Below, one piece after another: positions 17,514 to 41,101 of a DNA stretch of 42,912 nucleotides. This stretch comes from a virus: positions 1 through 42,912 of IMG/VR virus record IMGVR_UViG_3300042937_000482. One strand, 5' to 3'. The notes under the pieces were generated by a model. The model worked only from the letters and a program-made list of their open reading frames with translations, was not told the origin of the DNA and ran no database searches. The first letter of the stretch is position 1; each line of letters opens with the position of its first letter. A program made the position numbers and the translations under genes.

Positions 17514-18206
17514 TCACCTTTCTTTAGAGTTTTTTATTCCTTTTGATATCTTGCCTTTCACTGGTTTCTCGTCTCGGCTACCGTTTTGACGGCGTGGCAA
17601 CTGCGGCACATCGGCTGAAGGTTTTCGCTGTCGAGGCGCAGGTCTGGCCTCAGTCTCAGCGGCTGGATGTGATCGACCAGCGTTGCCACTGTCGTTCGTC
17701 CCGCTTGCTCGCACGTCCGGCACAGCGGGTTGATTCGTAGGTACAGCCTGCTGTACCGAGTCCACACGCTGTCGTACCCGCGCGCGTGTCGGCTTTGGTT
17801 TGCCTGTCGGCTGTCGGCTGAGTGGAATTGATTTGGCCTGTGGCTCGACATTTTTTTCGGCATGTTTGCAATCATCCTGTGGTTGCCAAAGGTTTAGGCC
17901 TTTTGCCGCTCGTCGCCGTAACCGCCGGATCTTTTCGTAGCTTCCGCCTGGCGCATCGGTTGGCCAGTAGGACTGGCGCGGCGTGCCAAACATTTCAGGC
18001 GCTAGGCGTAGGACTACTTCGCCCCACTGTTCCAAGGTCCACTCGTCCAACTCTTCGGCTACATCCTCGATGATGTCGGCTAGTTTCTCACCGCTCAAAT
18101 TCTTTTGCGTGCCTATCGCCCTGGTCAGTGCTGCAATCCAGTGTGCCGGATAGCCCGAACCCAGCAGGCGTTTTTGAATACGCACGACTGGAATCACAGG
18201 TATCAC
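17514..18206 (-). CDS. Unknown protein between RusA and HNH, long overlap with HNH frame
   Basis: GTG-started frame of 230 codons. Residues 1-115 look like a real helical protein (NLSGEKLADIIEDVAEELDEWTLEQWGEVV, then YEKIRRLRRRAAKGLNLW). The remainder is Arg/Pro/Gln-rich low complexity and lies opposite the strongly conserved HNH frame at 17558-17863, so it may be open only because of base composition. Element B has an unrelated-looking gene in the same slot (35093-35503). Ribosome binding site is weak. The N-terminal half is credible; the tail is doubtful. Confidence 0.5.
   Translation of the reverse strand: MIPVIPVVRIQKRLLGSGYPAHWIAALTRAIGTQKNLSGEKLADIIEDVAEELDEWTLEQWGEVVLRLAPEMFGTPRQSYWPTDAPGGSYEKIRRLRRRAAKGLNLWQPQDDCKHAEKNVEPQAKSIPLSRQPTGKPKPTRARVRQRVDSVQQAVPTNQPAVPDVRASGTNDSGNAGRSHPAAETEARPAPRQRKPSADVPQLPRRQNGSRDEKPVKGKISKGIKNSKER
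17558..17863 (-). CDS. HNH endonuclease (terminase-associated)
   Basis: About 101 aa from ATG 17863 (an earlier ATG at 17875 is possible). The zinc/HNH core is clear: RGYDSVWTRYSRLYLRINPLC-x-x-C, then LVDHIQPLR, DSENLQPMCRSCHAVKT. Same architecture as the HNH genes of element B at 34773-35063 (RGYDRTWQKLR...LCRKC...VDHIISIR). In HK97-like phages this HNH protein acts with terminase in cos cleavage, and here it lies just upstream of terS. Confidence 0.9.
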   Translation of the reverse strand: MPKKMSSHRPNQFHSADSRQANQSRHARGYDSVWTRYSRLYLRINPLCRTCEQAGRTTVATLVDHIQPLRLRPDLRLDSENLQPMCRSCHAVKTVAETRNQ

Positions 18207-18230: not shown

Positions 18231-18596
18231 TCATCCCTCCAGCCGTTTAACGCTGACCTGCATCCGAGCATCAGCACCGTCACCCGCTCCCATGCCAATT
18301 GATATTTGTTTGATCACCGAGCAGTTGTCATCAATGATCAAACCCATTTTGCAGAGACCATCGAGCGTCGGCTTGAACACGTTGTCTAGGTCTCGGTTAG
18401 CGCGCCAGCCTTTGCCCGGGATGATCGTGATGTCCACCGAGAGTGGCCCGCCTATCACCGGTTGAACACCATCGACCAGGACGCAGACCTGTAGCTCTTT
18501 CAACCATCGTTTGTAGGTAGCGGATAGGTAGGTGGCTTTACCGTGCCGTTTCCAAATGTGGTTCACGCTGGGTGGAATTGGCAGCGTGAGTTGCAT
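18231..18596 (-). CDS. rusA: RusA-family Holliday junction resolvase
   Basis: 121 aa from ATG 18596, which overlaps the upstream stop (TGATG). RusA pattern: LPIPPSVNHIWKRHGKATYLS at the N-terminus, and the catalytic block RDLDNVFKPTLDGLCKMGLIIDD with the conserved Asp residues and Lys. It cuts branched replication or recombination intermediates before packaging. Element B carries a divergent homolog at 35500-35883. Confidence 0.9.
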   Translation of the reverse strand: MQLTLPIPPSVNHIWKRHGKATYLSATYKRWLKELQVCVLVDGVQPVIGGPLSVDITIIPGKGWRANRDLDNVFKPTLDGLCKMGLIIDDNCSVIKQISIGMGAGDGADARMQVSVKRLEG

Positions 18597-18847
18597 CAGG
18601 TCCCACCGTTCAGTTTGTCCCAGTGATCCACCGTGATGCGCCACAGTTTTTTATCTGGCCTGCCTGGCGCTTGGATTTGATCCCTGTGCCAGCGAATAGC
18701 CTTCAGCAGCGCATCACGGTGGTCCTGCAAACCGTTCAACAACTTGGTGCCAGTGGCCAAAAGTATCGTTGCGCTCTCCATCTGGCTTCGCAGTAGAACC
18801 ACCTCAGCTCGCAGGGTAGCCAGTTCCCGTTCTGTATCCGGGTTCAT
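18596..18847 (-). CDS. Small coiled-coil protein (83 aa)
   Basis: 83 aa from ATG 18847 (GAGGTAAGCGCC upstream). The N-terminal half is coiled-coil-like (TERELATLRAEVVLLRSQMESATILL) and the C-terminus has Trp/Arg-rich RKLWRITVDHW. An open frame extends upstream to 19150, but that part is opposite the secreted Cys-rich gene and is not favoured. Unknown function; coupled to RusA. Confidence 0.6.
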   Translation of the reverse strand: MNPDTERELATLRAEVVLLRSQMESATILLATGTKLLNGLQDHRDALLKAIRWHRDQIQAPGRPDKKLWRITVDHWDKLNGGT

Positions 18848-32817: not shown

Positions 32818-34094
32818 GTAGACAACTCCTGTAATTTGGAGTTTGTTAGGCGTGTATTAAAATAGCGTAGGCGGGCGATGTGGCCGTTAAGTGCTGCACT
32901 TATCAAGCTAGAACCACCAATTTCCATCCTGTTTACCGTTGGCAATGTTCCAGATGCGTCAGTCAGTACTGCCGATCCATCGTCGCTAAAAGCAAAATCG
33001 TCAACTTTATATGCCATTGCGTCCTTGCTTGTTGCTCCCTGCAACCATGCGCCAGCAGAAGTGTAAATTAAGGCTTGCCAAACATTTCCATTTTTAACCC
33101 AAAAACCAACATCCGTGTAGGCATTATTTTGGCTACGAGAGGATTGGTATTGGTTGTTAAAAGTCCCATCGGAAACAAGAAATACAAAATGATTGCCTAT
33201 AACATTGCTAGATGAGTCAGCTTCGTAAACTAAACTCCCCTCACTCGCATTCCAAAAACCACTAAAGTCAGTCCCAGTTATCTGACAGACATCCGCTGAC
33301 CTTGTCACCGCTGCTGTGGTTGTTGGGATGTAGCTAGTTGGGAATGCGCCTGCTTCCAGTTGTGCGCCCCAAACATAAACCTCCTGACCAGCCTGATCTA
33401 CATAAACACCGGGAGCTTGCACTGGGGTAGTCGTAGCTGTGGCAGTTTGAGTGACTGAGTATCTAACCCATTCGCTAGTGATAGTTAAAACCAACCATGT
33501 TCCACCGCTACCATATGGATTGGTGTTAATCCATACATTTCCAGTTCCAGACTTCCTTTTTAGCCATACCGAAAATGTATACGCTGTTCCGTTTGCGTAG
33601 GTAATTGAGGCGAGGTTTGCTACCCAGTATGGGCCGGTTCCGTTAACCATTAGTGCTGCTGTATTAGTTCCATCTGGTGCAGCAGCAGAATTTGCCGTCA
33701 CAGATTGACCACTCCCGCTAGTATTCCTCTGCCAGTAGGTCACATTGGCTAAATCGCCTGAGCTTCTACATGAATTCGTCCGCTGCTCCTCAATCAATAA
33801 CCCCTTACTCACCCAGCTAGATCCGTTGTAGACATGATTGAATCGTGGAGCGTTAATCGCTGCTGTGGTTAGCACACCGGAAGAAGTAAAATATGTTCCA
33901 GTCGATGCCCTGGAAAAACTTGGCGTAGGCCCATAGGCCGCTGGCAAAGATCTATCAGTAGCCCAGTCTAAATCCAGAGCTGGTAGTGGATCTTGAATAG
34001 ACCTAGCCCTTTTAGCGCCCGTCAAACCAGCAGAAATACCCACGCCAATCATGCTGTGCCCTCTGTTGGTTCCAATGCTAAGTAGGTTAAGCAT
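32814..34094 (-). CDS. LamG/CBM-like phage receptor-binding tail protein (complete)
   Basis: 426 aa. Same N-terminal signature as the protein at the left edge (FSRASTGTYF, APRFNHVYNG, GLLIEEQRTN). Then its own variable jelly-roll-like domain (residues about 108-250: YTFSVWLKRKSGTGNVWIN..., ending YVWGAQLEAGAFPTSYIPTT). The shared C-terminal LamG-like domain follows (GSLVYEADSSSNVIGNHFVFLVSDGTF...FNTRLTNSKLQELS). Swapping of the middle domain with conserved flanks suggests receptor-specificity exchange. Located at the virion tail tip by inference. Confidence 0.85.
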   Translation of the reverse strand: MLNLLSIGTNRGHSMIGVGISAGLTGAKRARSIQDPLPALDLDWATDRSLPAAYGPTPSFSRASTGTYFTSSGVLTTAAINAPRFNHVYNGSSWVSKGLLIEEQRTNSCRSSGDLANVTYWQRNTSGSGQSVTANSAAAPDGTNTAALMVNGTGPYWVANLASITYANGTAYTFSVWLKRKSGTGNVWINTNPYGSGGTWLVLTITSEWVRYSVTQTATATTTPVQAPGVYVDQAGQEVYVWGAQLEAGAFPTSYIPTTTAAVTRSADVCQITGTDFSGFWNASEGSLVYEADSSSNVIGNHFVFLVSDGTFNNQYQSSRSQNNAYTDVGFWVKNGNVWQALIYTSAGAWLQGATSKDAMAYKVDDFAFSDDGSAVLTDASGTLPTVNRMEIGGSSLISAALNGHIARLRYFNTRLTNSKLQELST

Positions 34095-34095
34095 G

Positions 34096-34359
34096 TCAGT
34101 ACCAATTAACCAAGTTAGTGGCAGTTGTCCCGGTTGCCTTTACTCTGCTAACACGGATCGGCAACACCTCGCCGTTGTAAACCGTGTAGGTCACATCTGA
34201 TCCGCCACCCGCTGGAGTGACTACCAGGCTACCGCCTACGCCAACCCGGATGGCCCGTGAATTAAACGCCAGATCCGTGCTGTCTGATGGTGTAATGGCC
34301 ACCTGATTATCCGCCGGGCTCGTCAGGCCTTCTACAAAACTGCTGTGCTGGTCAGCCAT
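34096..34359 (-). CDS. Small phage tail/adhesin-associated protein, copy 2 (87 aa)
   Basis: Matches the 87-aa gene at 1038-1301 with about one residue difference (GGSLVV for GGTLVV) but with synonymous base changes. Retention of protein sequence with silent changes indicates purifying selection on both copies. Confidence 0.8.
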   Translation of the reverse strand: MADQHSSFVEGLTSPADNQVAITPSDSTDLAFNSRAIRVGVGGSLVVTPAGGGSDVTYTVYNGEVLPIRVSRVKATGTTATNLVNWY

Positions 34360-34360
34360 C

Positions 34361-34780
34361 TTAGTACTCCTCTACTACTGCTAGAATGTCTGTTTGCTTC
34401 GCTGCTGTCATTGTGGCCAGACAACCAACCTTCAAAATGAAACCATTCTTTAGCGGCAATATAGTCCGATTATTTAAATCCCTTGGCAGCCCAGGCAACA
34501 GGCTGGAACCAAGAATATCCACGCTAGCCACCGCGCCATCTGTGCCGCTGGCCAATGCCACCCGCACTGTGCCAAGCAGGAAATCGGTGGTGCCATCATT
34601 GATGGCAACCTTCAGGTTTACCGCGCTGGTGTCTGTGGTGGTGACTGTGATGCTTTTAACCACGGCATCATCTGTGCTGGCTGTGTACAGGGTCACATAG
34701 GTGGTTGTGTCTGTGCTGGTTAGGCGCTTGCCTAGCAAGTTTATTTCTTGGGTGAAATTTAGATTAGTTGATTTAGCCAC
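34361..34780 (-). CDS. Distal tail / adhesin module protein, copy 2 (GTG start)
   Basis: 139 aa from GTG 34780; AAAGAGG upstream. The GTG lies inside the last codons of the HNH gene (overlap GTGGCTAA). The copy at 1303-1722 uses ATG at the same residue, so the start codon was replaced or changed when this gene came to follow the HNH gene. Protein body is nearly identical to copy 1. An in-frame extension upstream of 34780 is an artefact of the HNH frame. Confidence 0.8.
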   Translation of the reverse strand: MAKSTNLNFTQEINLLGKRLTSTDTTTYVTLYTASTDDAVVKSITVTTTDTSAVNLKVAINDGTTDFLLGTVRVALASGTDGAVASVDILGSSLLPGLPRDLNNRTILPLKNGFILKVGCLATMTAAKQTDILAVVEEY

Positions 34781-35063
34781 GCTGCTGGTCCTCTTTAGTT
34801 TTCTTGCAATGGCAGGCCCTGCACAGGGCTTGCAGGTTTTCCGGGTCAAGTCTCAAGTCTGGCCGTCTGCGAATGCTTATAATGTGATCCACATCACCCG
34901 CGGCCTTGCCGCATTTCCGGCACAATGGCTCCCGCCTCAAAACCATCAGCCTGAGCTTTTGCCAAGTCCGGTCATACCCTCGGGCATGGGTCGATGGCCT
35001 GGTCAAAGCCCTAGGCATGGCTGGGGCTGTGCTTCTGTGCTGGGCAAGCTTGCGCGGAATCAT
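34773..35063 (-). CDS. HNH endonuclease (terminase-type) lacking an adjacent terminase
   Basis: 96 aa. Core: RGYDRTWQKLRLMVLRREPLCRKCGKAAGDVDHIISIRRRPDLRLDPENLQALCRACHCKKT, the same family as 17558-17863. In element A this gene precedes terS; here it runs directly into the distal-tail module with an 8-bp overlap and no terminase, portal or capsid follows. Complete catalytic residues. May still act on cos DNA packaged by another phage's terminase, which is speculation. Confidence 0.88.
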   Translation of the reverse strand: MIPRKLAQHRSTAPAMPRALTRPSTHARGYDRTWQKLRLMVLRREPLCRKCGKAAGDVDHIISIRRRPDLRLDPENLQALCRACHCKKTKEDQQRG

Positions 35064-35092: not shown

Positions 35093-35503
35093 TCACCCGG
35101 GAAATAGCTCTAGCTGCACTGGCTCATCAACACCCGCGGAATCCCTCGGGTGGTGCAGGGCTAGCCCGCACCTGGCCCGCTCACTCAATCTCCACAACAT
35201 GCTCCGGCTGCCGGGAATGGCCGCGCTGGTCTTCTTGCTTGGTGGGCTGTCGAGATACAGCTCCGGGCAAACCAGCTCACACAGCATGGCCCACCGTGCC
35301 ACCGTGATCCTCGGCACCAATTCCGGGATAGTTTCCAGCCGGTCCTCCAGCTCATCCAGTGGCACATCATCCGGCAGCTCATCCATGGCCACGGCCAGCC
35401 CATCCAGTATCTCTTGATCCTGTAGCCACAGCCTCACATGGTCCAGCCTCTTGGCCACCTCGGCAGCCGGAACCGTGCGCTCATCCACCTCAAACCTATT
35501 CAT
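35093..35503 (-). CDS. Unknown protein ending in a sliding-clamp-binding motif (136 aa)
   Basis: 136 aa, ATGA overlap with RusA. Acidic helical middle (MDELPDDVPLDELEDRLETIPELV), WAMLCELVCPEL, and a C-terminal QLELFPG. QLELF (residues 130-134) is an excellent match to the bacterial beta-clamp-binding pentapeptide (QL-S/D-LF), in the exposed C-terminal position usual for such motifs. The element encodes its own clamp 0.4 kb upstream. Body function unknown; probably recruited to replication forks. Confidence 0.65.
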   Translation of the reverse strand: MNRFEVDERTVPAAEVAKRLDHVRLWLQDQEILDGLAVAMDELPDDVPLDELEDRLETIPELVPRITVARWAMLCELVCPELYLDSPPSKKTSAAIPGSRSMLWRLSERARCGLALHHPRDSAGVDEPVQLELFPG

Positions 35504-35883
35504 GCTTCCGCTCCGTAATGCCGCACAGATACCACCACCTCTGCCTCAGGTGAGGTGCCTGGCCCCAGCTCGATCACTACCCGCTGGATCACCGTGTGAT
35601 CGTCCGCCGGGATCAGCCCCTCACGCACTAGGAAATCCAAAACCGGCTTGGCCATGTTGTCCAAGTCCCGCTTCCGCTGATCCCAGCCTTTGCCCCGTCT
35701 GGCCTCGATGTGAACCTCTAGGGGCCCGCGCCATTTGCAGGGCTTACAAAATTGGCACATGAGTGCCACTTGGGCCCGCTGGATCCACTGGGTGTAATTC
35801 TTGGAAAGAAAGGTCCGCCCCCGCGCATGGCGCCAGATGTGATTGACAGATGGGGGCAGGGGCAGACAGATGGTGAGAGCCAT
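35500..35883 (-). CDS. rusA: RusA-family Holliday junction resolvase
   Basis: 127 aa. ICLPLPPSVNHIWRHARGRTFLS start and the catalytic KRDLDNMAKPVLDFLVREGLIPADD block with conserved Asp residues. Homologous to 18231-18596 but clearly divergent. Located between clamp and HNH, in the same relative order as in element A. Confidence 0.9.
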   Translation of the reverse strand: MALTICLPLPPSVNHIWRHARGRTFLSKNYTQWIQRAQVALMCQFCKPCKWRGPLEVHIEARRGKGWDQRKRDLDNMAKPVLDFLVREGLIPADDHTVIQRVVIELGPGTSPEAEVVVSVRHYGAEA

Positions 35884-35890
35884 GAGGCTC

Positions 35891-37015
35891 CTAGGTTAGG
35901 GGCATGACAAGGGCGCTGTAAAAATCGCCCCCGATCACAACAGGATGCCCCTCACCTTTAACCGAAAGCTTTGCCGATTCACCGCAATGCCTGACACAGT
36001 CCGCCAAGTATGCTGGGTTAAGATTAATGTCTAGCTCATCCCCCACCACATCCACAGCCAGATCTACCGTGGCTTGCCCGCGGCCCGTGCCCCGAGATTC
36101 CAGGGTGAGGCCATGAGGTCTGATCCTCAAGCCCATCCTCCGTGTCTCGCTGTCCACGCACACACTAGCCCGCTTGATACCTGAGAGAAGGTTTTCGGTG
36201 CCAATCTCAAACACTGTGCCCGCCTTACCCTTGGGCCAAACGGCATCCACATCCGGGAACTTGCCCTCAATCAAAACCGTGGTCATGGCCACTTCAAGGA
36301 TGCCCTCCACATACCACTCCACCCTGAGTTGGCGCGTGGTCCATGAGAAGACCGCAAACTCCACAGCCACCTTCTCCATCACATCCACAGCCCGATTGGG
36401 CACCGTGATGGGATCAGGTGCCCCGTATGGCGGGTGGCTCTGATTGGCCAGCCACTCCTCCACCAGGCTGCATTCAGCCATAGCCAATCGCCTGCCGTCT
36501 GTGGCAATTGCCTGTAAGAAATGATTGGTAATTCTCAGGTGTACCCCGTTCATGGTGAACCTTGAGGCATCCGTACTGGCCGCGTAGGATACCCGCCTAA
36601 CCACCTGCCGAAGCTTGCCCCCTGTAGCTACCAGCTTCCAATCTGGCTCAGCCAGGGGAACATCTGGCAGCTTCTCCGGCTCTCCAGTCTCAAGCCGGTA
36701 CACCATGCCAATTGAGCTGATCACAGCCTCCGTGCCATCAATCTGAATGGTAACCTCTCCGGCAGGCATAGCCCTGAGCACAGCCAAGAGCTGGTGGGCT
36801 GGGAGCAATACCTCACCCGGCCCCTCCAGTAGGATCAGCTTGAGCCCACACTCTAGGTGGATCTCAAGATCCGTGCCATGCACCGTGGCCTTGAGAATAT
36901 CCGGCACCTTCAGCCTGAGAAATCCGAGCTCTGGCCTAGTTGGCTTGCTTGGCACCACTCCGCACACCATGGCCACCGCGGCCAGTAAACTATCCCGCTC
37001 TGCCTCAATTCTCAT
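35891..37015 (-). CDS. dnaN: Phage-encoded DNA polymerase III beta subunit (sliding clamp)
   Basis: 374 aa, close to the bacterial length (~366), GGAGGGGTT before ATG. Three-domain clamp pattern: GTDLEIHLE near residue 50, HFLQAIATDGRRLAMAE near 165-180 (the highly conserved ATDG-R-LA), NLLSGIKRASVCVDSETRRMGLRI near 275, and LNPAYLADCVR...FYSALVMPL at the end. It should form a ring on DNA and tether polymerase. Complete clamp genes in phages are uncommon. Not a host remnant: it is coupled on both sides to phage genes. Confidence 0.92.
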   Translation of the reverse strand: MRIEAERDSLLAAVAMVCGVVPSKPTRPELGFLRLKVPDILKATVHGTDLEIHLECGLKLILLEGPGEVLLPAHQLLAVLRAMPAGEVTIQIDGTEAVISSIGMVYRLETGEPEKLPDVPLAEPDWKLVATGGKLRQVVRRVSYAASTDASRFTMNGVHLRITNHFLQAIATDGRRLAMAECSLVEEWLANQSHPPYGAPDPITVPNRAVDVMEKVAVEFAVFSWTTRQLRVEWYVEGILEVAMTTVLIEGKFPDVDAVWPKGKAGTVFEIGTENLLSGIKRASVCVDSETRRMGLRIRPHGLTLESRGTGRGQATVDLAVDVVGDELDINLNPAYLADCVRHCGESAKLSVKGEGHPVVIGGDFYSALVMPLT

Positions 37016-37254
37016 AACCCCTCCCCTTTTTCGTTTCCCTGCTTCTGCTCAACCTCAGCAATCAAAAACTCCAAGCACCGAATTGCTTTCCTGAGATCTT
37101 CCACCCCGTTCTTATGCCAGCACCTCCACAGGTACTTGATTGCACACCCGTGCCAGTAGGCCATCATTCCAGCCTGGCCCAATACAGCCCGCTGGGCCTC
37201 ATGGCATTCAAGCCCTGTCTGGCTCACATAGTGGCTAGGGTCTACTTTGCTCAT
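37012..37254 (-). CDS. DUF3310 protein
   Basis: 80 aa, ATGA overlaps on both sides. DPSHYVSQTGLECHEAQRAVLGQAGMMAYWHGCAIKYLWRCWHKNGVEDLRKAIRCLEFLIAE follows the DUF3310 pattern (HY...G-x-E...A-x-KYL-x-R...D-x-x-KA-x-x-x-L). Homolog of 19769-20002. Confidence 0.82.
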   Translation of the reverse strand: MSKVDPSHYVSQTGLECHEAQRAVLGQAGMMAYWHGCAIKYLWRCWHKNGVEDLRKAIRCLEFLIAEVEQKQGNEKGEGL

Positions 37255-37466: not shown

Positions 37467-37590
37467 TTCCAGCCTCCTCAGCAAGTCTTAGTAACCTTCC
37501 CAAAAGCTTATGCTGCTTGGCAGCAAATCCATATTTGCCCGCTATCTCATGCACGATCTGTGCCACCTCTCCCCATCTGTCCATGCTCAC
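37354..37590 (-). CDS. Small unknown protein (78 aa)
   Basis: GTG 37590 overlaps the sigma-factor stop (GTGA). Helical N-terminal half (WGEVAQIVHEIAGKYGFAAKQHKLLGRLLRLAEEAGND), then a Gly/Cys-rich tail that overlaps the next gene for about 110 bp and may be a composition effect. Moderately credible because of the coupled start. Confidence 0.45.
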   Translation of the reverse strand: MSMDRWGEVAQIVHEIAGKYGFAAKQHKLLGRLLRLAEEAGNDTGQNPVQGISETPGAGCGACGPGCEAGGNQQATDG

Positions 37591-38132
37591 CCCGCGTACT
37601 CAATCCCGTGTTTTTCGATGTGCTGGTTTAGTTCCCTAATAGCGTTGTCTTGGATCTGGCGCACCCGCTCCTTGCAAATCTTGAAATGCTCAGCCAATGC
37701 CGCTAGTGTCATCCCGGCCATTCTTTGCCGAAGGATGGAGGCCCCACGCTCATCCAAAAGGGGCAGTAGGGTTTCTAATTGGGCCCGGGCATATCTGCCC
37801 CGGTCCATGTCGATGGCTGGAGCCGGTATATAACACTCTGTTTCTGCCAGGCTATTTACTTCATTGTTCCTCTTTTGCATGGCACCCAATCGCCACATGC
37901 CGTGCCGGAAAGAGTGGAAGGCATAGGTGGAAAACTTGAACCCCAGCTCCGGCTTGTAGCCAGCCGCCGCGATCACCAGCCGATACAGACATTCAGCCAC
38001 CCACTCATCCTGAGTAATTCCGTAGGCTGGGGGCCTGTACTTGCGGGAAAACTTATAGGCCAATGCCAGATTGTCATCTACCAGCTTCTGCTGTTCTGCC
38101 GTAAGCATTGGCCGCGGTTTATGCCTACCCAT
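37587..38132 (-). CDS. Phage sigma-70-family factor
   Basis: 181 aa. Region 2: NLALAYKFSRKYRPP...DEWVAECLYRLVIAAAGYKPELGFKFSTYAFHSFRHGMWR. Region 4 HTH: LPLLDERGASILRQRMAGMTLAALAEHFKICKERVRQIQDNAIRELNQHI, with the standard SKERVRQI-type recognition helix. A complete, minimal sigma factor. Probably drives element B transcription after early phase. The upstream gene is a second sigma-like protein. Confidence 0.85.
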   Translation of the reverse strand: MGRHKPRPMLTAEQQKLVDDNLALAYKFSRKYRPPAYGITQDEWVAECLYRLVIAAAGYKPELGFKFSTYAFHSFRHGMWRLGAMQKRNNEVNSLAETECYIPAPAIDMDRGRYARAQLETLLPLLDERGASILRQRMAGMTLAALAEHFKICKERVRQIQDNAIRELNQHIEKHGIEYAG

Positions 38133-38655
38133 TCAATCGGTCCCCCCATCTCCGAGCCATGTACCTTAGGGCCATGTCGTACTGTTTCCTCACCGTTTCC
38201 TTGCTGCACCTCAGCACCCGGCCAATATGCGAATAGGATTTACCCCGTAGGCGTAGGGTAATAACTGGCTGCCACCTTAGGGGCAGTCGCTGGATTATTC
38301 CCCTCACCAGCACCGCGGCCTCACTCACGGCATCCCCCGTGGTCTGGTCCCGGTAGTCAACCACATCCACTTCATGGCTACAGGCCACCACCCGGGAAAT
38401 ATCCCGGCATTTAAAGCTCATGCGCTTCTGGCAGCACTTCCACCCGTTCATCATCACCCGGGTGGCATAGCCAGGGAAATTCTTGCTCTGGCTAGGTTTA
38501 AACTTGATTGCCGCCATGGTCATGTAGTACCAACATTCCGCGGTCCAATCCGCCTGGCACATGCCCCGTGGGGGCTGCCACTGGTGGCTGAAATAATAGG
38601 CCAGATTCAGATTGGCATTAACCAGCTCCTGCTGGTCTGGTGTCATGGGTTTCAT
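38125..38655 (-). CDS. Second sigma factor-like protein
   Basis: 176 aa from ATG 38655 (GGGAGGAGTT). Same N-terminal layout (LVNANLNLAYYFSHQWQPP...DWTAECWYYMTMAAIKFKPSQSKNFPGYATRVMMNGWK). C-terminal HTH VLVRGIIQRLPLRWQPVITLRLRGKSYSHIGRVLRCSKETVRKQYDMALRYMARR. Tandem with, and related to, the sigma factor at 37587-38132, so a duplication followed by divergence. Two factors could give two promoter classes. Confidence 0.78.
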   Translation of the reverse strand: MKPMTPDQQELVNANLNLAYYFSHQWQPPRGMCQADWTAECWYYMTMAAIKFKPSQSKNFPGYATRVMMNGWKCCQKRMSFKCRDISRVVACSHEVDVVDYRDQTTGDAVSEAAVLVRGIIQRLPLRWQPVITLRLRGKSYSHIGRVLRCSKETVRKQYDMALRYMARRWGDRLNG

Positions 38656-38837
38656 AACTCCTCCCATCCCGGCTGTGGCCCACTCTGGCCAAGCTCAACA
38701 TTTACCCACTCAGGCCAGTAGGTACGCCCCTGAACCATCACCCCGGTCTGGTCCCGGATAAGGCGCCGGAGCCGGTCCACCTCGGCCCGGGCCTCCTGCA
38801 ATTCGCTAAGCATGTGGTCTGAATCTCTGTCCGCCAT
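38652..38837 (-). CDS. Small helical protein with YWPEWVN motif, element B copy (61 aa)
   Basis: 61 aa, ATG after GGGAGAGATAC, ATGA coupling to the sigma gene. Coiled coil (LSELQEARAEVDRLRRLIRDQTGV), then RTYWPEWVN. Homolog of 20516-20743. Conserved in both elements despite different surroundings. Confidence 0.7.
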   Translation of the reverse strand: MADRDSDHMLSELQEARAEVDRLRRLIRDQTGVMVQGRTYWPEWVNVELGQSGPQPGWEEL

Positions 38838-39004: not shown

Positions 39005-41101
39005 TCACTCGGGTTTTACAGTGTTTTCATGACAAAAATACCTCAGGGCCTTCCTTCCAGGCTTCAATGATTCATCCAGCTTTGCCAGGATTTCACCCGA
39101 TTGAAGTAATGCCTCAAGCACCTCGGCCCGCTCCCTGGGGCTGAGAGATTGGGTGCGCCTGCATAATTCACTCCCCGTGAGCCCATGCTTACCTGATTCC
39201 TGAATAGACCGGAGCACCCGCTTCCTCCGGCCATCAAATGGCCCGTCTGCCACCCATTGATGGGCAAGGTAGATCAGACGCTGGGTAAGGTATTTGGAGA
39301 GCTCACAGGCCCATCTAGAGGCCTCTAAATCAATCTGGATTGGCTCACCTGGCACCATGCGGGAGCAGGTGTGGAGGAGGGCCAGCTTGCGGGCCTTCTC
39401 AGCCGCCCGGCTCCACAGGGTGTTCAGTTGGCTTTCTTCCTTATCCTGTGCGCGGTCACACTCCTCATCAAACTGATCCAGCATGGCCCCAGCCTCCCGG
39501 GTGCTGGTGATCACCAAAGGCTTGGGGTGCATACCCGCTAGGTTGCCCGTGCCGGGTGTCCAATTCACCCAAGCCCGAACTTGCTCCACCAAGTCAGCAG
39601 GTGGGGCCATTGCCCGTGGCTTGCGCTTTTTTGGCCTAGTGGCTGGCCCTTCCCATATCAGCACCCGAGATAGAAACCCATCTGCCACGCTGTCTGCTGT
39701 CAGGCCTTGGTACAAGCTTTCCGGAACCGTGGTGCCGAATAGAACCACATTGGGTTGGTGGATCTCAACCCGCTTGCTGATGTCCGCGTAGGCATCCCCC
39801 AGATACACCGAATGGCTTGAGGTGTAGAATTTCATAAAATTTGTGACGATGCCGCTTAGATGTGGGGCCTTGTCTCCCACAGCAGATATCCCCCGGAGCC
39901 ATCGGCCTATTTCATCAATGAGCCAGACCATGCTGGGCTGTTGGCCCGTGTGTGTGACTAGCCCCGCATGGCTGGCAATGCTTTCCCCCAACATTGCCCC
40001 AGCACCTGCTTGCCAGAGGATCTCTTTAACTGCTGACCTTGGCGCCTCTTTGCCAGCCCCCGATGGCGCCACCCCAAGGCCATAGAGGTTGGGCCTAGTG
40101 CCGATTTCATCCATCACCCGCCTGCCTGTGATCACGCTCAATAGGCTCAGGCCTGCTCCAAGGGCCAAGATGGGCTGGGGCCTGTGCGAGCTATCCAGCA
40201 TGTATTGGCAAGCATCAGCCAGCAGGCCCGGCACCTCAAGCAAGTGAGCCGGAAATGGTCCCGGGTCAATTGGCCCGATGCTGTCAGGGATCTCCTCGGC
40301 CATCTGCCCCCAATGGCCCTCCACGAGAGCCACGGTGATCTGGTCAGGCTCATAACGGCTAATGGAGTCGGCGATCCGCTCCACCTCTGATTCACACAGG
40401 GGAGGGCAGCACCTATCAGCATTTGCCCTGTGCAATGCGCTGGCAATCTCCCCCCGGCTCATGCCTGCCCGCCGCATGGTGCCCGCTAGACGGGCTAGGG
40501 TGTAATTCCTTTGGCCATCCGGTATCGGGTTGCTGTCCCCCAATATCGGCCCCTGTGGCAAAGCCCCCGGCCCGCGGCCCTGTGCTAGGGCATCCGCCAT
40601 TTTGATGAGCCACTCCGGAGGCTCTGGCAATCTACCCAATGGATCCAGCTCGAGCCCATCAATCCACTGGTACTGGCTGCCATCTTCCAGCCTGCTAGGT
40701 GGGGCCACTATGTAACCACCATTAGCCCGGGTGTCCACCTTGGTGGCCAATCGGCCCGCTGTGCTCCGGTACTCCCGTGCCTCCGGCTGTCGGTAGATAT
40801 GATGCCTGCCGCCTGATGGTGTCACTGAAGTGGGAGCTTGGCAGAGCTCGGCAGCCAGCTCTTGATTGGTTGGCCAATCATTATCCCCACCATCCACATC
40901 CACCACCAACAGGCCATCAGTAACCAGCCCAATATTGGCTGTGGGGCATGCCTCCCACCAGGCCCGGATCTGAGCCTCATCCGTGGTGGCATCGTTCCTT
41001 CCATGCGTGGTGTTGGGAAGCTTCCGGCCTGGTCGGCAGGGGAAAACCCGGTAGCCCATGGCTGCATATTGGAGGGCTGAGTCTAAGAGCATTTCGTCCA
41101 T
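39005..41101 (-). CDS. Primase-polymerase / DUF3987 helicase-like replication protein
   Basis: 698 aa. N-terminal prim-pol (AEP) domain: YAAMGYRVFPCRPGRKLP, catalytic D68-V-D70 in LLVVDVDGGD and the GGRHH block at 97-101. PriCT-like region at about 200-250 (RNYTLARLAGTMRRAGMSRGEIASALHRAN...ESEVERIADSI). DUF3987 ATPase domain: Walker A-like GVAPSGAGKEA at 343-353 and WLIDEIGRWL (Walker B) near 395. This is a replicative primase-helicase; with the clamp and annealing genes it gives element B a fairly autonomous replication set. Confidence 0.88.
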   Translation of the reverse strand: MDEMLLDSALQYAAMGYRVFPCRPGRKLPNTTHGRNDATTDEAQIRAWWEACPTANIGLVTDGLLVVDVDGGDNDWPTNQELAAELCQAPTSVTPSGGRHHIYRQPEAREYRSTAGRLATKVDTRANGGYIVAPPSRLEDGSQYQWIDGLELDPLGRLPEPPEWLIKMADALAQGRGPGALPQGPILGDSNPIPDGQRNYTLARLAGTMRRAGMSRGEIASALHRANADRCCPPLCESEVERIADSISRYEPDQITVALVEGHWGQMAEEIPDSIGPIDPGPFPAHLLEVPGLLADACQYMLDSSHRPQPILALGAGLSLLSVITGRRVMDEIGTRPNLYGLGVAPSGAGKEAPRSAVKEILWQAGAGAMLGESIASHAGLVTHTGQQPSMVWLIDEIGRWLRGISAVGDKAPHLSGIVTNFMKFYTSSHSVYLGDAYADISKRVEIHQPNVVLFGTTVPESLYQGLTADSVADGFLSRVLIWEGPATRPKKRKPRAMAPPADLVEQVRAWVNWTPGTGNLAGMHPKPLVITSTREAGAMLDQFDEECDRAQDKEESQLNTLWSRAAEKARKLALLHTCSRMVPGEPIQIDLEASRWACELSKYLTQRLIYLAHQWVADGPFDGRRKRVLRSIQESGKHGLTGSELCRRTQSLSPRERAEVLEALLQSGEILAKLDESLKPGRKALRYFCHENTVKPE

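Follow-up and report, generated by a model that had tools for sequence, protein, structure and literature searches.

The archaeal pair of PCNA and Hjc is a case in which a Holliday-junction resolvase is coupled to a sliding clamp, and there the resolvase itself binds. In bacteria, the canonical clients of the beta clamp are polymerases, ligase, and mismatch repair proteins, which use a motif such as those of Pol II and Pol V/UmuC of Escherichia coli; where the motif is C-terminal, it is placed on a flexible tail. QLxLF is the consensus of the tightest natural motifs, and the broader canonical form is Q-phi-x-[LM]-[FL] (PMC11139829). Phages also aim at clamps with small proteins. In T4, which has a trimeric clamp, gp45, of its own, gp33 (112 aa) and gp55 carry C-terminal clamp-binding epitopes of hydrophobic and acidic residues, that of gp55 behind a divergent linker (PMC2988020), and Gp168 of phage Twort occupies the DNA channel of the host beta clamp (PMC11139829).

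The window analyzed here is the whole stretch of 42,912 nucleotides and encodes a beta clamp close to a 136-aa protein that ends with VQLELFPG. With canonical clients, this protein shares the exact consensus and the C-terminal position on a flexible tail, and the co-encoded clamp has an intact pocket, but it is none of the three kinds of client and belongs to an unnamed phage family. It resembles gp33 and gp55 as a small phage protein with a putative C-terminal clamp epitope, and here, too, the phage encodes a clamp, but the tail is of the QLxLF type and the gene adjoins a gene for a RusA resolvase instead of late-transcription genes. Like Gp168, it would be a small protein with which a phage targets a beta clamp, although here a peptide for the pocket is implied, in a phage that possesses its own clamp. 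As in the archaeal pair, the reading preferred below would put junction resolution on the sliding clamp, but by a separate, translationally coupled adaptor; the RusA protein lacks a conserved canonical motif. In the literature, a resolvase-clamp “plug-in” of this kind was found described for no phage.

The clamp cassette and the QLxLF tail

Two related phages, A and the clamp-bearing B, contribute to the window, a mosaic in which a B-type early region is joined to a nearly complete A-type phage. The order is the B-type early region, the HNH gene, and the fibre block, followed by the A-type integrase and the A genome, and a direct repeat of about 92% identity (positions 1 to 1722 and 33128 to 34849) contains the fibre genes for 139, 87, and 426 aa. 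A recombinant, tandem prophages, or a chimeric contig would each account for this layout; the clamp cassette was nevertheless confirmed on independent IMG/VR records. The idea that the right half (B) may be a satellite, lacking capsid genes and arranged in tandem with a phage, was rejected because an independent 33.1-kb IMG/VR phage record, L110, which was located via its RusA gene, contains TerS, TerL, head, tail, integrase, early region, clamp, RusA, a 141-aa protein, HNH, and fibre genes on a single contig. The phage is temperate and probably has planctomycete bacteria as hosts, as indicated by a PGS..K...L..R...GL.L.HP.D sequence element shared with planctomycete chromosomal proteins and by relatives of its Prim-Pol protein in two planctomycete metagenome-assembled genomes (MAGs).

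All genes of the cassette are on the minus strand. It begins with a gene for a DUF3310 protein (37012..37254), followed by those for the clamp (35891..37015), a RusA-family resolvase (35500..35883; PF05866, 48.8 bits with a cut-off of 22.8; phrog_34, E value of 2.4e-20), the 136-aa protein (35093..35503), and an HNH endonuclease assigned by Pfam and PHROG (34773..35063). The same order from DUF3310 to HNH was present in L110, and that from the clamp to HNH in all four records with a clamp, the window and three other IMG/VR records; in each of them, the HNH gene comes after the 136-aa gene.

The clamp gene encodes a complete protein of 374 aa, as had been proposed earlier from the sequence, with 152.9 bits for TIGR00663 (cut-off 137.65), all three Pfam beta-clamp domains, and an E value of 1.1e-52 for PHROG 947, the family of phage-encoded beta clamps. 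The fold agreed: the model, with a mean pLDDT of 76, matched the E. coli beta clamp 3pwe with a Z score of 35.2 over 355 residues and an rmsd of 3.5. Its identity to the clamps of sequenced phages, e.g., that of Thermus phage Lalka8, was about 28 to 30% at most, and a viral scan with the clamp as query recovered only the already known relatives. In subsites I and II of the peptide-binding pocket, residues R152, T172, G174, R176, L177, P242, V247, N320, Y323, M362, and P363 are the same as in E. coli, while H175 is changed to R and M364 to L, both as in planctomycete clamps. Between the window and L110, 16 of the 18 pocket residues were identical compared to 37% of the overall protein (p about 5e-6); judged by these residues, the pocket is far better conserved than the remainder of the clamp. 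The pocket core is also that of planctomycete host clamps. Next to its normal dnaN, one planctomycete MAG contained a second, divergent DnaN-like gene (L205, G003:C133:2958-4097) with an E value of 7.1e-36, which was below the family cut-off.

The start of the 136-aa gene overlaps the stop of rusA by 4 nt (ATGA), and the comparison with a 91% identical copy revealed 42 synonymous and 12 non-synonymous codon changes. Both the overlap and the mostly silent codon changes mark 35093..35503 as a real gene. The product had no match in Pfam, PHROG, or NCBIfam, and hence none to T4 gp33 in PHROG or Pfam, although homologues of gp33 are poorly conserved themselves (PMC2988020). An AlphaFold2 model based on an alignment of 11 sequences predicted a folded helical domain of residues 10 to 84 (35252..35476) with a pLDDT of about 83 to 91, a low-confidence helix at residues 100 to 111, and residues 116 to 136 with a pLDDT below 50 and without secondary structure. 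The QLELF motif, residues 130 to 134 (35102..35116), is thus predicted to sit in a flexible, accessible tail behind the folded domain. The best match of this domain in Foldseek was no better than an E value of 0.3, and VIA-align yielded at best Z scores of 6.8 for a part of propionyl-CoA synthase and 5.2 for DdmE, values that carry little weight with helical models.

How probable is such a tail by chance? With the composition of the window, 0.0018 QLxLF motifs ending within the last three residues would be expected in its 71 tiled open reading frames (ORFs), and 0.036 at the same position in the same ORFs if the canonical pentamer is relaxed. When the fetched loci were tiled into 2113 ORFs, the sole C-terminal QL.LF belonged to a member of the 136-aa family, compared to an average of 0.11 for permuted patterns, although this background is rough due to greedy tiling, included non-coding ORFs, and displacement of the window's own copy. 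QLELF is kept in L003/L005 (98% identical) and in L004 (91%), which has little weight alone because the entire protein is conserved there. Three of the five motif codons, however, differ from the 91% copy, and all of these changes are silent (CAG/CAA, CTA/TTG, CTA/CTG). The strongest evidence comes from L110, the homologue of which is 54% identical and ends at its extreme C terminus with DSLGVKLEERQLSLF (RQLSLF): the linker residues have diverged while the motif differs solely at the free third position. QLELF and QLSLF both satisfy the canonical pattern in its best form, QLxLF. On alignment evidence, the motif is kept in four of four known clamp-bearing members, three of which are at least 91% identical, so that they represent effectively two independent tails of one origin.

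Of the canonical motifs in the window, L004, and L110, that of the 136-aa protein alone recurred in all three cassettes. The other replication, sigma, RusA, and HNH proteins of these three had no canonical motif kept across all of them; motifs kept less widely were QADLL of Sak4, in two of the three, and an N-terminal QIDLPL in RusA of L004.

Relatives in phages without a clamp

In the A-type part of the window, a gene for a 230-aa protein (17514..18206, minus strand) follows that for the A-type RusA, which is located immediately upstream (18231..18644, minus strand). The within-window comparison with the 136-aa protein gave a BLAST E value of about 6e-4, indicating a diverged relative; a profile built from the 136-aa family matched down to 1e-47, but this score is not independent because the 230-aa protein itself is in the profile. 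The best A-type record (G210, 33.8 kb) appears almost complete, with TerS at one end and, all the way round, the gene for the 230-aa protein at the other. A third type of 106 aa follows RusA in L122 to L124. Whole-record searches located a clamp solely in the window, L004, L005, and L110; twelve records that belong to the A type, the 106-aa type, or a further RusA group yielded none.

No QLxLF was found in A-type proteins, the tail of the 230-aa protein included, and the 106-aa type ends with EELGLWG, at the same place as the motif but without Gln and Phe. RusA and the 136-aa family are adjacent in three lineages, with overlapping starts in most, and the clamp-less relatives follow RusA without the motif. 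These three lineages suggest that the protein is associated with RusA and the canonical tail with the phage clamp. The earlier note had named conservation of the motif as one point on which its idea could fail; the motif is kept within the clamp-bearing clade, and its absence from the clamp-less relatives fits a dependence on the clamp. Against this, EELGLWG could be a decayed form of the QLxLF tail or one directed at the host. In the clamp-less relatives, TerS or other genes follow instead of HNH.

The element SAAIPGSRSMLWRLSERARCGLALHHPRD of the 136-aa protein (residues 92 to 121, 35141..35230), of the form PGS..R..GL.L.HP.D, is common to the A-type relatives. Small planctomycete chromosomal proteins share it as PGS..K...L..R...GL.L.HP.D, e.g., in L107, L108, and L099, without the tail. 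Beyond these proteins, tblastn against phages yielded no credible distant relatives of the 136-aa protein, a core-alignment search of GTDB genomes had zero matches, and a B-type profile had zero matches in 392 genomes of the phylum of L018, in a search without a positive control. A weakly similar 82-aa ORF in L089 was rejected as a chance match.

The chromosomal proteins with the variant APAGS..K...L..R...GLPLWH..D (L107:1432-1647, L108:1393-1644, L099:1252-1644, L101:1468-1671, and L100:1369-1650) had no Pfam or NCBIfam entry, with two tested against Pfam and one against NCBIfam, and their neighbours vary (holB, csrA, RNase D).

A possible adaptor for RusA and competing readings

The earlier note had suggested a phage-specific clamp partner. 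The gene, its conserved near-ideal motif, and the adjoining intact phage clamp agree with a clamp partner, but lend no support to its specificity, since the pocket core of planctomycete host clamps is the same and the tail could bind either clamp. Binding of the tail to a beta clamp is very likely, and the main target would probably be the phage clamp. In this mechanism, the flexible C-terminal QL[E/S]LF peptide would dock in the hydrophobic pocket of a clamp of the beta type, in all likelihood the one that the phage itself encodes in the same translationally coupled cassette, and the folded N-terminal part would carry a cargo. The best candidate for the cargo is the RusA-type Holliday-junction resolvase, the product of the coupled gene, because both genes are found side by side in each of three lineages, mostly with an overlap; this assignment is tentative and a little less than evenly balanced. 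Guided by the clamp as a mark of replication, RusA could then resolve branches in the new phage DNA ahead of packaging. Of the two recruitment activities suggested earlier, that of RusA is plausible owing to the location of its gene between those for the clamp and the 136-aa protein, while that of HNH is weaker because HNH is not the next gene in the clamp-less relatives. The 136-aa protein as a clamp-tethered adaptor with RusA as likeliest cargo is given about an even chance. Adjacency does not show a contact with RusA, which might act alone, and judging from the pocket residues the host clamp would accommodate the QLELF peptide as well. In a broader and more speculative version, the family may accompany RusA in planctomycete phages generally and couple Holliday-junction or branch resolution by RusA to the phage clamp, with the QLxLF tail as a modular “plug-in” of the clamp-bearing lineage; this version as a whole is possible but rather doubtful.

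The two sigma-70-like genes (37587-38132 and 38125-38667, minus strand) raise the question of a late-transcription coactivator similar to T4 gp33, in which the folded part would contact RNA polymerase or a sigma factor of the phage while the tail holds the phage clamp, coupling late transcription to replication. One or two sigma-like proteins and the clamp are indeed encoded beside the 136-aa protein, and the epitopes of gp33 and gp55 are C-terminal as well. The sigma proteins, however, have no canonical clamp motif, no similarity of the 136-aa protein to gp33 was found with Pfam or PHROG, and the family adjoins RusA also in clamp-less phages, so that its core job needs no clamp; such a coactivator is unlikely. 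The same conserved neighbour bears on a replication accessory that bridges the clamp to SSB or to the Prim-Pol/DUF3987 protein (39005..41101, minus strand) and lends processivity. Prim-Pol is encoded within the same early region, and Prim-Pol, SSB, sigma, and HNH proteins of the window, L004, and L110 are without a canonical motif, but it is RusA, not Prim-Pol, that stays next to the protein from lineage to lineage, and clamp-less relatives occur without this Prim-Pol, none being in the A-type early region. Such a function appears improbable.

A different outcome would be interference with the host, with the tail filling the pocket of the host clamp in competition with host polymerase or repair proteins. 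The identical pocket core of phage and planctomycete clamps would allow this, and phage inhibitors of host clamps exist, although Gp168 blocks the DNA channel and not the pocket (PMC11139829). Such an inhibitor, however, would block the phage's own clamp too, and the motif is confined to phages that also encode a clamp with this pocket. Its absence from clamp-less phages disfavours the host clamp as only target, and no indication of the previously suggested displacement of host polymerase was obtained; interference is considered quite unlikely. It is even harder to maintain that QLELF is incidental or the cassette misassembled. The mosaic window with its direct repeat and the close relationship of three of the four members could be cited for this explanation, but the cassette was seen in three other IMG/VR records, and QLSLF in the 54% homologue and the silent motif codon changes argue against chance, leaving this explanation very improbable.

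Possible clamp-binding tails in other phage proteins

Small family-less phage proteins with a clean clamp-docking tail are useful handles on the purpose of phage beta clamps. If the 136-aa protein is indeed an adaptor, this would mean that a phage, one of a planctomycete group that is mostly uncultured, wires junction resolution, and perhaps preparation for packaging as well, to the replication clamp via one short, mutable peptide. A C-terminal QxxLF tail is suggested as a simple rule to find phage clamp clients.

A 115-aa protein of phage A (24158-24505, minus strand) had been proposed as a weaker match due to its RQNDLF start. The protein exists, and Q-N-D-L-F in the start M[RK]QNDLFGG is kept in an 86% identical A-clade copy, but the N-terminal motif is absent from homologues in Xanthomonas, Streptomyces, and Arthrobacter phages. 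Conserved at the clade level only, it was not used as evidence.

A queuine tRNA-ribosyltransferase-like protein of the A-type record G210 (L195:13962-14852; phrog_887, E value of 1.3e-57), possibly a DpdA-type DNA transglycosylase, ends with LQTQGELFA, and a protein similar to it (L188:125-628) with TKQQELFA. The C-terminal QxxLF on this enzyme suggests clamp-guided DNA modification. Finally, an 86-aa protein of no known family in an A-type phage (L119:765-1025) ends with KQGDLFA, possibly another tail for clamp binding, although this phage encodes no clamp itself.
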